DNA of 57,412 nt from Deltaproteobacteria bacterium RIFCSPHIGHO2_02_FULL_44_16 (GTDB taxonomy: Bacteria > UBA10199 > 2-02-FULL-44-16), in NCBI GenBank assembly GCA_001798185.1, contig MGRM01000023.1:1-57412 (forward strand), in the 5' to 3' direction. Under the pieces are notes generated by a model. That model saw nothing but the letters and a program-made list of their open reading frames with translations, made no database searches and was not told where the DNA came from. The translations under genes and the position numbers were made by a program. Positions 14,443 through 21,350 of this stretch are shown piece by piece; position 1 is the stretch's first letter; each line of letters begins with the position of its first letter.

Positions 14443-15282
14443 TCATCCATGCCGCATCCCTTTCTTGGGCGGTAGATAATTTCCTGCGCTCACCACTTTT
14501 CGGCCAGTCTTTTCCTCAAGTTCCAAACGTGCTTTTTTGGCAATACGTCCACCCTTGATACCGGCAACTTTGTTTTCATCCATTCCCGTGGCACTGGCAC
14601 TTTCGGCAATTTGTCGTGAAGATAATTCTGCAAGCGCCGTGAAAATCAATTCTGCCTCGTTCATATGGTCGCGCAGATTCTGAGTTTTTAATCCCTTGAG
14701 GGCTTTGTGGTCCTTAACCGAAACGTCGGCCCACTCTTGATGAATGATGTTAGTGAGAATGGCAAATTCATCACCTTCTTTAATGCCGTGATCTTTCCAA
14801 TAATCGGTGAGTTTGTTGCGAGTCTCTTGACCCATCATGCGTTGTTGAACCCACTTTTCACTACGTCCATGTTTACGCCATGTCTCACGGGCACGATCGA
14901 GCGAACGGGCAGGATCGGACATTTCTTGCATGCGTTCATAACCAACCTTGGCGAGCCAGAGCTTCACTGGTTCGGCCTTGGGGCTTGGGACGGATTGAAT
15001 CAGGCGTAGTAAGGTTTCGGGATTGGCCACATCGGTAAGATATTTTTTACCGTCGGCAGCTTCCAATTTCAGTCGGTTACATTTTGTAACCGACTCACTC
15101 CCCTCTTTCATCAATCGATTTTTAAGCACTTTCCAATAATTTCGAGCAGCCTGAAAGTTGGGCTGTTGGATGAGCACCTGAATAATGTCGACGACAGAGA
15201 AGTACCAAACCTCCTTTTCTTTATCGTATAAACGACGAATTTTAAAGTTTTCAAAAATAGCTAAATTAGTTTTGCCTGTCAT
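14443..15282 (-). CDS. BRO-N domain protein (prophage antirepressor-like)
   Basis: The 279-residue protein starts KTNLAIFENFKIRRLYD and has the BRO-N core VWYFSVVDIIQVLIQQPNFQ, followed by YWKVLKNRLMKEGSE, LRLIQSVPSPKAEPVKLWL and a C-terminal GGRIAKKARLELEEKTGRK. It matches, from memory, a widespread chromosomal family with a BRO N-terminus annotated as phage antirepressor or DNA-damage-inducible. It probably binds DNA. ATG 15282 with AAAGG upstream was chosen over 15309. No other phage genes are nearby. Confidence 0.85.
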   Translation of the reverse strand: MTGKTNLAIFENFKIRRLYDKEKEVWYFSVVDIIQVLIQQPNFQAARNYWKVLKNRLMKEGSESVTKCNRLKLEAADGKKYLTDVANPETLLRLIQSVPSPKAEPVKLWLAKVGYERMQEMSDPARSLDRARETWRKHGRSEKWVQQRMMGQETRNKLTDYWKDHGIKEGDEFAILTNIIHQEWADVSVKDHKALKGLKTQNLRDHMNEAELIFTALAELSSRQIAESASATGMDENKVAGIKGGRIAKKARLELEEKTGRKVVSAGNYLPPKKGMRHG

Positions 15283-15424
15283 AACGCAAACCTTTCTGCA
15301 ATTGTGCAACTGTACATTGCATATTCTTACAAGTCAGCCGTGTTGTAGACACGTAAATGCGGTCATAATCGACTCCATCATGTCGAAGTGTATGGTATAG
15401 CAAATTAACCTTTCATGAGTATGA

Positions 15425-16263: not shown

Positions 16264-17160
16264 TTAACCCCTCGGATGATATTTCTCGTGAAGTTTTTTT
16301 AAATGCTGGCGCGTGAGATGCGTATAGATTTGTGTGGTCGCAATGTTGGAGTGACCGAGCATCATCTGCACACTTCGCAAATCCGCACCTCGCTCTAAAA
16401 GATGTGTTGCAAATGAATGCCGAAGCATGTGCGGCGTGATCCTTTTTTGAATTCCAGCTTTTCGCGCGCACGCTTTCACAACTCCCCACAAGCGTTGACG
16501 CGTCAGCCCTTCTCCCTGCTGTGAAAGAAAAAATTTCTCAGAGCGATGCTTCTCATAGAAACGCGGCCGCACTTCATCGACGTACGTTTGCAATGCCTGC
16601 AACGCAATCTTCCCCACAGGAACCAAACGTTCCTTACTCCACTTTCCCATCACACGCACGACACCGGTTTGAAAATCGACACGATCAACGGTCAAACCGG
16701 TCATCTCACTGATGCGAAGTCCTGAAGCATAAAAAAGTTGCAAGATGGCAAAATCGCGCTTTCCTAAAATCTCTTTCTGATCAGGCGCTGTCAGGAGCGC
16801 ATCGACTTCATCGAGTCGAAGAGCGCGTGGAAGTTTTTGGAACTTCGCAGGCGATTCGATAAACTCCATGGGATCACGCTCAATCGCTTTTTCGTGAAGG
16901 AGAAAAGAAAAAAAACCGCGAAGCGAAGCAACAATGCGAGCGATACTCCGTGAAGAGAGTTTTTTTTGCGCAAGCTCTGCAAGAAATGGCAAGATATCGG
17001 CTTCACGTATGGATGAAAGAGAATTTTCCTCTGCATAAAAATGTTGAAACTTCAGAATATCGGAGGCGTAAGCTTCGAGAGTGTGGGGAGAGAGTCGACG
17101 TTCAACTCGCAGCGACGTCAGATAAAGATCAATCAGATCTTGCAAGCCACGCGTTTTCAT
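16264..17160 (-). CDS. xerD: Tyrosine recombinase, XerD-like
   Basis: This family resolves chromosome dimers at dif with a partner recombinase. The 298-residue protein has the SAM-like N-terminal domain (1-100) and all catalytic residues: Arg149, Lys173, His244, Arg247, His270 and Tyr279 (GHSNIATTQIYTH). Length is that of XerC/XerD and not of phage integrases, and no phage genes adjoin, so a housekeeping Xer is favoured; XerC is possible. ATG 17160 gives the normal N-terminus. The divergent neighbour's longest frame would begin in the same CATG. Confidence 0.9.
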   Translation of the reverse strand: MKTRGLQDLIDLYLTSLRVERRLSPHTLEAYASDILKFQHFYAEENSLSSIREADILPFLAELAQKKLSSRSIARIVASLRGFFSFLLHEKAIERDPMEFIESPAKFQKLPRALRLDEVDALLTAPDQKEILGKRDFAILQLFYASGLRISEMTGLTVDRVDFQTGVVRVMGKWSKERLVPVGKIALQALQTYVDEVRPRFYEKHRSEKFFLSQQGEGLTRQRLWGVVKACARKAGIQKRITPHMLRHSFATHLLERGADLRSVQMMLGHSNIATTQIYTHLTRQHLKKLHEKYHPRG

Positions 17161-17182
17161 GAAACGTACTTTATCAGAACAA

Positions 17183-17971
17183 ATGAACATTTTCAAAAAA
17201 TATAAACTCGGTTTCGAACATATCTTCATCGGAGCACGCTTTCTTTTCAATCAACGCTCTTTGTGGCCCTATGCAATTCTTCCGATGTTGATCAATCTTG
17301 TCCTGCTTGGCAGCATGATCGGAACGTTCTCTTTTTTCTATGATGAATCGTATACCTGGCTCGCAGCACAGCTCGGCTCTCTCCATATCGAAAGCCCCAA
17401 CACGTGGATACTCCATCTTGCCAATGCACTCCTCTGGGTGCTCGACAAACTTTTTCAACTCCTTATCATTCTTTTAAACCTCATTCTCATGCTCCTTCTC
17501 TTTTATGCGCTCGGGTTTCTCATTGCCGCCCCCTTTAATGATCTCCTTTCAGAAAAGGTGGAACAACTTGTCACCGGGAATATCTCTTCGCTTCCGTTTT
17601 GGAAAAATATCGTGCGAACATTCAAAGCGGAACTTCTGAAGATTCTCTTTTTTCTGGGAATTCCACTTTTTCTCCTGTTGGTGACTACCTTTCCTTTTCT
17701 TGGCCCCTCTCTTTATCCGTTCATCACTATTGTTTTTGGCATGTTTGACCTCGGATTTAATTATCTTGATTATCCGATGGCGCGCAGACTTCTCCCTTTT
17801 CGGGAACGTCTTCGCTTTGCACGATCGAACACACTTACGGTCGTCGGTTTTGGGCTTCCGTTTGCCATTCCTTTTACGAATTTCTTGTTGATGCCGATAC
17901 TCGTTGTTGGCGGCACACTTCTTTATTTAAAACTTTCTACCGAACCACGTCATGATCGCCATTCCGTATAA
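17183..17971 (+). CDS. EI24/CysZ-like multi-pass membrane protein
   Basis: The 262-residue protein begins NIFKKYKLGFEHIFIGARFL and has several hydrophobic segments (LWPYAILPMLINLVLLGSMI, LLIILLNLILMLLLFYALGF and others) in the pattern of the EI24 family, which includes the sulfate permease CysZ. The role here is not evident, since no sulfate genes are near. The frame is open to 17159, but that ATG overlaps the xerD start; ATG 17183 is favoured. It overlaps trmB by 20 bases. Confidence 0.75.
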   Translation: MNIFKKYKLGFEHIFIGARFLFNQRSLWPYAILPMLINLVLLGSMIGTFSFFYDESYTWLAAQLGSLHIESPNTWILHLANALLWVLDKLFQLLIILLNLILMLLLFYALGFLIAAPFNDLLSEKVEQLVTGNISSLPFWKNIVRTFKAELLKILFFLGIPLFLLLVTTFPFLGPSLYPFITIVFGMFDLGFNYLDYPMARRLLPFRERLRFARSNTLTVVGFGLPFAIPFTNFLLMPILVVGGTLLYLKLSTEPRHDRHSV

Positions 17972-18554
17972 ATCTCCTGATCGCCGAACTCGTGCACAAT
18001 TTCTTTTCCCCGCAAGTGCATCGTGGCAACAAGCTCAAAAGTTGATTGTCGAGATTGGTCCTGGTCGAGGTGATTTTCTTTTTCATCTTGCAAGCACAAA
18101 CCCCGACGCAATCATCTTAGCAGTTGAAATCAAATCACTTCGAGTGGACAAACTGGTTCGTCGCATTCAGAAACGTGGAATGAAGAATATTATTCTGATT
18201 CAGGCTGACGGACGTGATTTTTTGAAGACGTTTTCAGAAAAAATCCATGCCCTCTATATCAACTTCCCTGATCCTTGGCCAAAACAAAGACATAGAGAGA
18301 ATCGGCTTATGAATCCCCGTTTTCTCTCAAGCATAAATGCTTTACTGACTCCCGGAGGATTTTTTTCATTTACCACAGACGATCAAACCTATGCGACTTA
18401 TACCTCGCGTCTGCTTCAAAATATTGCAGAGTTCCAATCACTGGAAGAAAAGAGGATGAGCACTTCTGCACCTGATGCGTTTCCCACCTATTTTTCAGAA
18501 AAATGGAAAGCAATGGGACGTACCATCTACTATCAACGCTACAAAAAACTTTAA
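17952..18554 (+). CDS. trmB: tRNA (guanine-N7-)-methyltransferase
   Basis: TrmB methylates G46 in the variable loop of tRNA with S-adenosylmethionine. The 200-residue protein has the SAM loop VEIGPGRGDFL (about 33-43), AVEIKSLRVDKL, and the family signature NFPDPWPKQRHRENRLM near 109-125. It starts inside the 3' end of the EI24-like gene and ends with a four-base tail-to-tail overlap with dsbD. Length fits the family. Confidence 0.94.
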   Translation: MIAIPYKSPDRRTRAQFLFPASASWQQAQKLIVEIGPGRGDFLFHLASTNPDAIILAVEIKSLRVDKLVRRIQKRGMKNIILIQADGRDFLKTFSEKIHALYINFPDPWPKQRHRENRLMNPRFLSSINALLTPGGFFSFTTDDQTYATYTSRLLQNIAEFQSLEEKRMSTSAPDAFPTYFSEKWKAMGRTIYYQRYKKL

Positions 18555-20164
18555 CGCATTTCGACAATTTCAAGCATTTTCGCTCGTATCCGATCGGGAT
18601 CATACGCGGTAATGATCGCATCTGGATAGAGGGTCCCGTCAGATCCAAGGAAAAGAATGGTCGGCCAACCGATCACACTATACTTATCGACAATCGCTTC
18701 CACCTCTTCTGTCTCAACCGTAGCATCAATGCGAAGCATGACAAACGCGCGACTCAGTTCAAGAATCTCTTGTCGCGAAAAGAAACGGTGATCGAGTTTC
18801 TTACACGGCGGACACCAATCAGCATAGAAATCGATCATGATCGGTTTCTGCAGTTGCTCTGCGAGCGCTAAAGCTTCTGGCTCAGAGGTAAGCCAATCGA
18901 TCTGCTCAGCGCCTCCTTTTTTCATAAAAAAACCGAGAGGGTCAAATCCTGCAAGCGTGGTGAGATAAAAAATTGCAGGGACGAGAAGCATTACGCCGAG
19001 CGTACGTTTGATCCATACCATCCATTTTCCACTCTTGATATGATCGGTGATGGTCGCAAAACCAGATCCGATAATGATAAAGAGTGATCCCATTCCGAGA
19101 CCGAAAACAACGAGCGCAAGAAAACCAAACGCATAATTTTTTTGAAGCACAACATACGTTAGAAGCGCTGCCAGTACTGGTCCCACACAAGGGGAGGCGA
19201 TAAAACCGACACCGATTCCGGCAAGGAAGGCGCCAAAATATCCTCGACCTCCGAGCCGATGAAAAAACTGATGTACCGATTGCGGAAGCTGCAGATGAAA
19301 AACATCAAAAAGAGAAAGCGCAAACAGAATGAAAACAAGACTGATGATGCCAAGGAAAATGGGCTGCTGAAAGAGAAAACCTAAATTTTTCCCAAGCGCG
19401 GCTGCGCCGATTCCCAGTGCGGCATAAATAAGCACCATACCAATGACAAGCGAAAGCGAGAGCCCAACATTTCGATACCATTTATGTTCAGGATGTGTTC
19501 CCACCACCGCAAGCACCAGCGGAATCACCGGCCAAACACAAGGAGTAAATGACGTTAAAAAGCCGGCAAGAAAGACAATGAGCAAGGTAAGCCCCATCCC
19601 CTGTTCAAGAAGAATCGCAAAGTCATTCGTTCGAATAAGCTCCCAAACGCTGCGCGTTTCTTCTGGGTGGTCACTCGTGGTCGAAACATCCACAGCTTGA
19701 GGTGGGACACTCCCCGTCACATTCAAGGTGATTTGAATCTCGTGTGTTTCGGGGCGCAGACAGAGCTTCGGAGTACACCCTTGGAGCATTACGGTCGCAA
19801 TTAAATCTCGCTCTCCTCCTTCAAAATTCTCTGGAACATGACCATGAATCGTGATGGCCACATCGTGGGTATAGATCGCCACTTCCTTCCCTAAAAATTC
19901 ATCGAACTTCTTGGTCGGCTTTGGATATTCAATGCGCTCGATCCGAATTCCCTCAAGGCTTTCAAAAAGAACATCAAGCTTTTCAGCGTAGAGATAATGC
20001 TCTTCGGGAACCGTGACTCGAAGAGGAACTTCAAAATCTTCACCCGGTTTGACAGCAACACTTAACTCCTTTTCGACCTGAAAAGGAGAAGCAGGCTGCT
20101 GAATGGCATGACTGAACGACGACCACAGAAAGAATGAAGCGAAAAAAAGAAAAAGTTTTTTCAT
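18551..20164 (-). CDS. dsbD: Thiol:disulfide interchange protein DsbD
   Basis: DsbD carries electrons from cytoplasmic thioredoxin across the inner membrane to periplasmic thiol proteins. After the signal peptide comes the alpha domain with GCTPKLCL, then the eight-helix core with the paired cysteines SFTPCVWPVIP and IASPCVGPVLA, then a C-terminal thioredoxin domain with ADWCPPCKKL. All six cysteines are present. About 537 residues fits the full-length family. A start six codons upstream (20182) is possible. It diverges from the diadenylate-cyclase gene and meets trmB tail to tail. Confidence 0.93.
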   Translation of the reverse strand: MKKLFLFFASFFLWSSFSHAIQQPASPFQVEKELSVAVKPGEDFEVPLRVTVPEEHYLYAEKLDVLFESLEGIRIERIEYPKPTKKFDEFLGKEVAIYTHDVAITIHGHVPENFEGGERDLIATVMLQGCTPKLCLRPETHEIQITLNVTGSVPPQAVDVSTTSDHPEETRSVWELIRTNDFAILLEQGMGLTLLIVFLAGFLTSFTPCVWPVIPLVLAVVGTHPEHKWYRNVGLSLSLVIGMVLIYAALGIGAAALGKNLGFLFQQPIFLGIISLVFILFALSLFDVFHLQLPQSVHQFFHRLGGRGYFGAFLAGIGVGFIASPCVGPVLAALLTYVVLQKNYAFGFLALVVFGLGMGSLFIIIGSGFATITDHIKSGKWMVWIKRTLGVMLLVPAIFYLTTLAGFDPLGFFMKKGGAEQIDWLTSEPEALALAEQLQKPIMIDFYADWCPPCKKLDHRFFSRQEILELSRAFVMLRIDATVETEEVEAIVDKYSVIGWPTILFLGSDGTLYPDAIITAYDPDRIRAKMLEIVEMR

Positions 20165-20222
20165 AGGGAGTGAAAGATACATGAGATGCTATTGATGAGT
20201 CAATTCTCGATTGATTTCAGAA

Positions 20223-20399
20223 ATGTCATTCTTTCGTAGACGGCATGTCGCCGGTTTAAGTGCTGGGGGCCCATCGTGATGAGCGGGTTGTGGAAACCTC
20301 GGCCCGAAAGTCTTGTGGCGGGAACGAGGAGGGTCCACAGACCGCGAACTCACGAAAGGGTCAGCACGGTCAGGCGACGTCGTCGAGAAAGAATGTCAT
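20223..20399. repeat. 177-bp structured palindrome before the diadenylate cyclase gene
   Basis: The outer arm ATGTCATTCTTTC (20223 on) recurs inverted as GAAAGAATGTCAT ending at 20399 with one mismatch; next to it GACG...GTCGCC pairs with GGCGAC...CGTC. Inside, GTGCTG pairs with CAGCAC, and GCGGGTTGTGGA with TCCACAGACCGC apart from a two-base internal loop. The whole could fold as one long hairpin with internal loops. It is GC-rich compared with its flanks and lies 54 bases ahead of the ATG at 20454. It does not fit any riboswitch I know, including ydaO. Either a structured RNA or an inserted palindrome. Confidence 0.75.
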
Positions 20400-20453
20400 G
20401 TGATGAATTTGTTCTTGCTGGCGCAGTTCATATTCGATATTTTAGGGGTCTCT

Positions 20454-21350
20454 ATGAATCCTGAAAATAGCTTTATGCTGAAAATGGCGTTTACCGTCGC
20501 AGAGAAATTAAAAGCCGATGCTGTCGTGCTTTATGCAGATCCTTTGGAAGATTTAAACTTTCCGTTGAAACTTCCGCGCCGAAAAATTCCGCTTATTCTG
20601 CTGAGTCGAAAGAAAAAATTTGAAGCGGAACAAGTCAATGCTGAGAATACAGGACTTCATATTACCTCTGTTATCTCTCTCCCCCGCATTCAAATGACGC
20701 GTGTTTCGATCATTAAAGTCGCGACGACACTCGCACTTTCAGGCGATTTTATAAAACCGGGGAATATCGTCGTTTTCGTCGTCGGTCCTCATGATGGAGG
20801 ATTTCTTGATCTCATCCATATTGTGGACACTTCCAAGGAATCAGAAATCATTACGGGGCGTGGGCTTTCAAAAATCTCCGAGACCGTGAAACCTGAGATA
20901 TTCCAAGCTGTTCTCAATCTTGCGGTTGAACTCGCGGATAAGGGTCGCGAGGGAAAACCGATCGGCACCATTTTTGTGCTCGGCGATCACGAAAAAGTTT
21001 TACAGCTCTCCAAACAAATGATCATTAACCCTTTCAAAGGATATGAAGAGGATGAACGCCACATTCTTCATTCAGGACTAAAGGAAACGATACGAGAATT
21101 TTCTGCGCTCGACGGCGCTTTTGTACTTACTGATGAGGGAACAATCTTAACTGCTGGTCGTTATCTCGGAGCAGCGATCGAAGAATCAAATCTTCCTCGC
21201 GGTCTCGGAAGTCGTCATCTTGCAGCTGCTGGGATCACGAGCTTGACGAAAGCTATAGCGATCGCTATATCCGAATCCTCCGGTGATGTGCGAATCTTTA
21301 AAAACGGTAAGGTCGTCATGCACATTGAAAAAGGGCCTACCAAAAAATAA
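20454..21350 (+). CDS. Diadenylate cyclase (DisA_N/DAC domain) with pyruvate-kinase-C-like N-terminus
   Basis: The C-terminal third carries the DAC motifs: LDGAFVLTDEGTILTAGRYL with Asp-Gly-Ala at 220-222, and GLGSRHLAAAGITSLTKAIA with the GSRH box at 252-255, then SGDVRIFKNGKVV. These bind ATP and form c-di-AMP. The usual RHR is RHL here. Residues 1-160 look like the pyruvate-kinase C-terminal-type domain found in DacZ-like cyclases (ADAVVLYADP, GNIVVFVVGPHDG, VDTSKESE). It has no membrane helix, unlike CdaA. ATG 20454 with AGGGG upstream is chosen; the frame's extension into the palindrome is not credible. A small ORF follows by 15 bases. Confidence 0.82.
   Translation: MNPENSFMLKMAFTVAEKLKADAVVLYADPLEDLNFPLKLPRRKIPLILLSRKKKFEAEQVNAENTGLHITSVISLPRIQMTRVSIIKVATTLALSGDFIKPGNIVVFVVGPHDGGFLDLIHIVDTSKESEIITGRGLSKISETVKPEIFQAVLNLAVELADKGREGKPIGTIFVLGDHEKVLQLSKQMIINPFKGYEEDERHILHSGLKETIREFSALDGAFVLTDEGTILTAGRYLGAAIEESNLPRGLGSRHLAAAGITSLTKAIAIAISESSGDVRIFKNGKVVMHIEKGPTKK

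Follow-up and report, generated by a model that had tools for sequence, protein, structure and literature searches.

A structured palindrome upstream of a diadenylate cyclase gene, probably one copy of a dispersed mobile element

In the window analysed here, a stretch of 57,412 nucleotides, a large palindrome (20223–20399) precedes a gene coding for a diadenylate cyclase. Does it control c-di-AMP synthesis as a cis-regulatory RNA, is it an independent RNA of the 6S type, or was it inserted at this locus? The original prediction, which listed these three options, described nested stems (CATTCTTTC/GAAAGAATG, GTCGCC/GGCGAC, GTGCTG/CAGCAC, and GCGG..TGTGGA/TCCACA..CCGC) that could form one 177-nt hairpin with internal loops. 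All of these stems were found in the sequence and in the computed fold, and they fold as a single rod with a minimum free energy of –91.3 kcal/mol, as compared to –59.4 ± 4.3 kcal/mol for dinucleotide shuffles (z –7.5; 0 of 200). The – strand of the same segment reached –74.2 kcal/mol. A further stem, GACGGC/GTCGTC, extends the list. The palindrome is intergenic and lacks a through reading frame. Its parts are as follows.

20223–20399, + strand: whole hairpin, outer arms and core (fold z –7.5; + strand more stable; G-U bias in the core)
20222–20229, no strand assigned: left copy of direct repeat AATGTCAT, possible though ambiguous target-site duplication (read from the sequence)
20223–20235, + strand: left outer arm ATGTCATTCTTTC (inverted repeat I1, 92% complementary)
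20239–20244, + strand: stem GACGGC, pairing with 20379–20384
20247–20378, + strand: core conserved with other genomes (match of covariance models R1/R2)
20247–20252/20373–20378, + strand: stem GTCGCC/GGCGAC (fold)
20260–20265, + strand: stem GTGCTG, pairing with CAGCAC at 20362–20367 (fold and covariation)
20295–20296, + strand: 5' side (AR) of the conserved internal loop
20330–20333, + strand: 3' side (ARGG) of the same loop
20379–20384, + strand: stem GTCGTC, pairing with 20239–20244
20387–20399, + strand: right outer arm GAAAGAATGTCAT (inverted repeat I1)
20392–20399, no strand assigned: right copy of direct repeat AATGTCAT (read from the sequence)

The sequence AATGTCAT, which the original prediction had not mentioned, is repeated exactly, in direct orientation, at either end of the hairpin. 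As a target-site duplication it is ambiguous, because it overlaps the arms and is nearly identical to its own reverse complement; an automated scan for direct repeats anchored on the arm ends did not single out this pair.

A DNA search of the genome assembly to which the window belongs (1.98 Mb, 97.5% complete) detected a second copy, 73% identical, between nadC and valS on contig C27. Its outer stems differ in sequence, with pairing retained. When both copies were compared on the consensus fold, eight pairs were changed on both sides, and all one-sided changes led to G-U pairs on the + strand. A covariance model built from these two copies (R1) found 18 places in genome G012, two in G007 and one in G006. 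BLAST of G012 with one of its own copies gave 73 matches at roughly 40 places at least, some of the matches being the reverse-strand image of the same palindrome. Among 30 hits of a pattern scan of the genome collection, one was a clear member (L038, E 1.7e-7), located in a metagenome-assembled genome of Methylomirabilota; L040 (E 0.018) was set aside. A second model (R2), applied to 385 genomes, added five copies in G019, one in G009 and one in the distant genome G076 (E 2.5e-5); since the filters were strict and at most nine candidates per genome were scored, these counts are lower bounds and an absence is to be read likewise. Taken together, six genomes of the class contain relatives recognised by the covariance models, and the loci are unrelated; the Methylomirabilota genome and another distant genome contribute a single copy each. 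Most genomes are draft assemblies, so that contig ends and copy numbers may mislead. The matched copies have cores of 110–154 bp within elements of about 160–240 bp. Their neighbours have no common theme and include genes of an enoyl-CoA hydratase, a peptidase M24, a subtilase, a lumazine-binding protein, a HAD phosphatase, FeoB, TilS, porphobilinogen deaminase and an aldehyde dehydrogenase, among others. BLASTN with the hairpin over 60 relatives returned just three chance matches in coding-like DNA, and BLAST against plasmids and phages gave no match. A viral pattern hit (L061) did not belong to the family according to the covariance model, and a second viral pattern scan was negative.

The fold is under selection. 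In an alignment of 21 diverse copies from eight genomes, 91.5% of the cells pair and 33 of 41 pairs show changes on both sides; since the model served to fit the alignment and eight of the rows derive from G012, the absolute score is inflated, but none of the shuffled or slid controls came close (34–43% paired in the slid controls). The covarying stems that the original prediction had proposed as a check are real and support the fold; the covariation implies no link to the cyclase. In the core helices of the 21 copies, G-U pairs outnumbered A-C mismatches 23 to 4, or 17 to 4 if each pair contributed a single count per genome. The outer arms showed a modest G-U bias (23:11), and G-T versus A-C mismatches over whole elements (98:82) revealed little strand bias. 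The excess of G-U over A-C in the core indicates that selection probably acts on the + strand in its folded form, either as RNA or as single-stranded DNA. The internal loop AR/ARGG is kept in the lineages inspected, and a second loop, G/AA, in most of them, G019 and G009 being the exceptions. Both the pairing and specific asymmetric loops are maintained by selection.

In our view, the hairpin represents one of the copies of a palindromic element of about 160–240 bp that is dispersed, mobile and non-autonomous (probability roughly 0.84). Copies elsewhere had been named in advance as favouring a mobile repeat, and they were found both in the same genome and, at many unrelated genes, in others, which speaks for an inserted palindrome. 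Most copies are diverged, so that the copy in the window may not have moved recently. In G012, members of a subgroup with GTAATGCC..GGCATTAC ends are flanked by direct repeats of 7–9 bp, as read from the precise coordinates of the individual copies given here: TTTAGTAAG at L079 (9/9), CTAAGCGG at L014, whose left end is shortened (8/8), and repeats matching at 7/8 positions at both L010 and L016; similar repeats were seen by eye at L086 and L029. No flanking direct repeats were found at L077, at the copies in G019, or at the nadC copy. Three of the five copies in G019 (L119, L123, L128) lie in frame within genes, which code for a methionyl-tRNA synthetase (MetRS), a GltD-like protein, and a PD40 protein. 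The insert in MetRS is located between the anticodon domain and tRNA_bind, and that in the GltD-like protein between Fer4_20 (ending at residue 133) and Pyr_redox_2 (starting at 193); all three inserts are placed at domain boundaries or between them. Two of the in-frame inserts encode the near-identical peptide ASAATFRAxAANEPSRTxREFSL, and the third a related one.

A trans-acting enzyme with specificity for the folded single strand, be it a DNA hairpin or a transcript, would help such an element to spread. Its persistence would be explained by where it lands, namely in the gaps between genes or, in the case of one genome, within genes, in frame and between the domains of the protein. The analysis revealed no mobilising enzyme, and searches covering IS66 and, in part, other families of insertion sequences found no parent element. 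An IS66 origin, suggested by GTAA ends and 8-bp repeats, was dismissed since four carrier genomes contain no IS66 transposase; integron attC sites were set aside as improbable because of the distribution of the copies, which are single and scattered and do not form arrays. Genes of Y1 (RAYT) transposases are present in all four carriers tested, and in the genome of the window they are on contigs other than those of the two copies.

In many copies the outer arms, of up to 54 bp, match each other almost perfectly and yet are shared with no other copy. Arm-pairing scores in G019 were 12.5–20.5 with the arm's own partner versus 7 or less with arms of other copies; the corresponding values for L088, L091, L080 and L089 of G012 were 36–47 versus at most 11. 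Subgroups in G012 have partial arm similarity in common. It is conceivable, though doubtful, that the hairpin inserts by a snap-back reaction in which adjacent host DNA serves as the template for the opposite arm; the mobile hairpin would then generate an inverted target duplication by itself. The arms could equally well have been corrected against each other after insertion, and they could also be selected.

The hairpin itself serves as a landing site. Nine copies in G012 are interrupted at one identical position of the core, CATNAG|GGTC, by one insertion sequence. Nine contig ends share an identical 54–61 bp start of this insertion (contig ends with insertion: L096:1–243, L092:1–130, L093–L095 and L099–L103), its right end is visible on L092 only, and the assembly does not contain the complete insertion, the contigs breaking there. 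Subterminal inverted repeats (ATGGATGACCTC/GAGGTCATCCAT) and an open reading frame with the N-terminus MNEGIFFIAIDVDD.. suggest a probable IS110/IS1111-like element. Pfam and PDB searches with the 46 visible codons, a fragment too short for a profile match, gave no match. A weak IS110 hit in G012 was a different sequence. If the insertion is of the IS110/IS1111 type, the question arises whether its guide RNA matches CATNAGGGTC. At L024, L081, L082 and L089 of G012, other dispersed repeats, of the GGATCCCCGCCTTCGC.. and CTCGCAATGACA types, were observed next to the hairpin's terminal loop or within it; repeats appear to be nested in this genome.

Among the competing explanations, a family of stand-alone structured small RNAs, 6S-like or other, duplicated and spread horizontally so that the copies are RNA genes, fares best but is still rather improbable. 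Strong covariation, conserved loops, the G-U bias favouring the + strand, and the intergenic position of both copies in the genome of the window would fit such genes. However, cmscan against Rfam assigned no family at gathering score in the window and nothing convincing at E ≤10 in the segment 20000–20600; the 6S RNA model was without match at either setting, and no riboswitch was listed, in keeping with the earlier remark that the palindrome does not resemble ydaO. The patchy distribution, from no copy to roughly 40, also weakened the 6S-like option: most genomes of the class lack the element, yet G012 harbours it at some 40 places or more. In-frame copies within coding genes and outer arms that differ from copy to copy are likewise difficult to reconcile with RNA genes. 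The distinction between the two readings would become less sharp if a mobile element were transcribed as well.

The position at the cyclase locus, from which the idea of a regulatory RNA arose, involves the following features.

18551–20182, – strand: DsbD-like gene on the other side of the hairpin, outside the element (domain search)
20415–20443, + strand: TTGCTG-17-TATTTT, likely promoter of the cyclase gene, located downstream of the hairpin (counterpart of the motif in order-mates)
20454–21350, + strand: diadenylate cyclase gene (DAC, DacZ_P), outside the element (domain search)

As a leader RNA of the cyclase mRNA, the hairpin would control c-di-AMP synthesis; its very stable fold and its 3' end 54 bases before the ATG at 20454 on the same strand, a distance given correctly in the original prediction, are what recommend this very unlikely interpretation. 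Of the 46 genomes of the class, 43 carry the cyclase gene, but when 30 cyclase neighbourhoods were searched with the covariance model, the element was found at the window's own locus and at none of the 29 others, and copies elsewhere adjoin unrelated genes. The proposal of a cis-regulatory RNA was weakened further by a promoter-like motif between hairpin and gene. Seven of eight order-mates have a promoter of the TTGAAG(A)-17-TA type (TTGAAG-17-TATnnT) before the cyclase gene; the motif was chosen after inspection of the sequences, and the window's TTGCTG-17-TATTTT taken alone was no better than shuffles (82 of 300). Since this motif, conserved in order-mates, separates the two, the hairpin is probably situated upstream of the likely promoter and outside the cyclase transcript, for which the evidence is good but not conclusive. 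In several order-mates (L139–L146), TTGAAG-17-TATnnT ends a few bases short of the cyclase start, which suggests that their cyclase mRNA has a very short leader or is leaderless. A few kb to the left of the hairpin, the window contains an open reading frame (14443–15309) that by eye resembles a BRO/antirepressor-type protein, and a recombinase gene of the phage integrase family (Pfam; 16264–17250); no link of either to the element was seen. As a mobile element, the copy in the window would have inserted into the gap separating the divergent dsbD and cyclase genes, a short distance upstream of what is likely the promoter of the cyclase gene, and it is probably a bystander there. A chance palindrome without homologues, for which the intergenic position and nothing more could be adduced, is practically negligible in view of the z value of –7.5 and the homologous covarying folds in many genomes.

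A tempting lead, a new regulatory RNA for c-di-AMP synthesis, is thereby removed as probably wrong, and a mobile palindrome family takes its place, whose fold shows strong covariation and conserved loops in distant bacteria. Annotators could mistake its copies for riboswitches or small RNAs. The copy-specific, near-perfect arms pose the testable question of how such hairpins insert or stay perfect.

REP palindromes are known as landing sites of insertion sequences, including those of the IS110 type (PMC1525189, PMC11187229), and in G012 a dispersed palindrome likewise is the exact and repeated landing site of one insertion sequence. However, REPs measure 20–40 bp (PMC3733652), whereas the present element, which differs from REP/RAYT systems in this respect, comprises 160–240 bp (110–154 bp for the core alone) and several loops. 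ERIC/RU-1 and RU-2, known from enterobacteria, and other bacterial MITEs are 100–200 bp long; they bear terminal inverted repeats and target-site duplications, their transcripts are highly base-paired, and open frames in genes occur occasionally (PMC2229807, PMC2759123, PMC10969869). Direct repeats at the ends are clear in one subgroup of G012 only; in contrast to MITEs with a common terminal repeat, many copies have arms of their own, and a parent insertion sequence was not found in the searches, which excluded IS66 and covered other families in part. The RPE of Rickettsia, palindromes of 105–146 bp forming long stem-loops, occur between genes as well as in frame within protein genes, to which they always add a related peptide (PMC2229807, PMC10969869). 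The present family resembles them as a dispersed palindrome of 100–250 bp with several copies per genome (two in that of the window, five in G019, at least about 40 in G012) and in the related peptides of the in-frame copies in three G019 genes, the copy in the window being intergenic; copies in frame between protein domains thus recall the situation in Rickettsia, here in an uncultured class. The hosts differ, the likeness is one of description, and the core of the present family keeps its asymmetric loops across distant lineages while the outer arms are copy-specific. By this likeness, the element would be best filed beside the RPE, ERIC and MITE elements.
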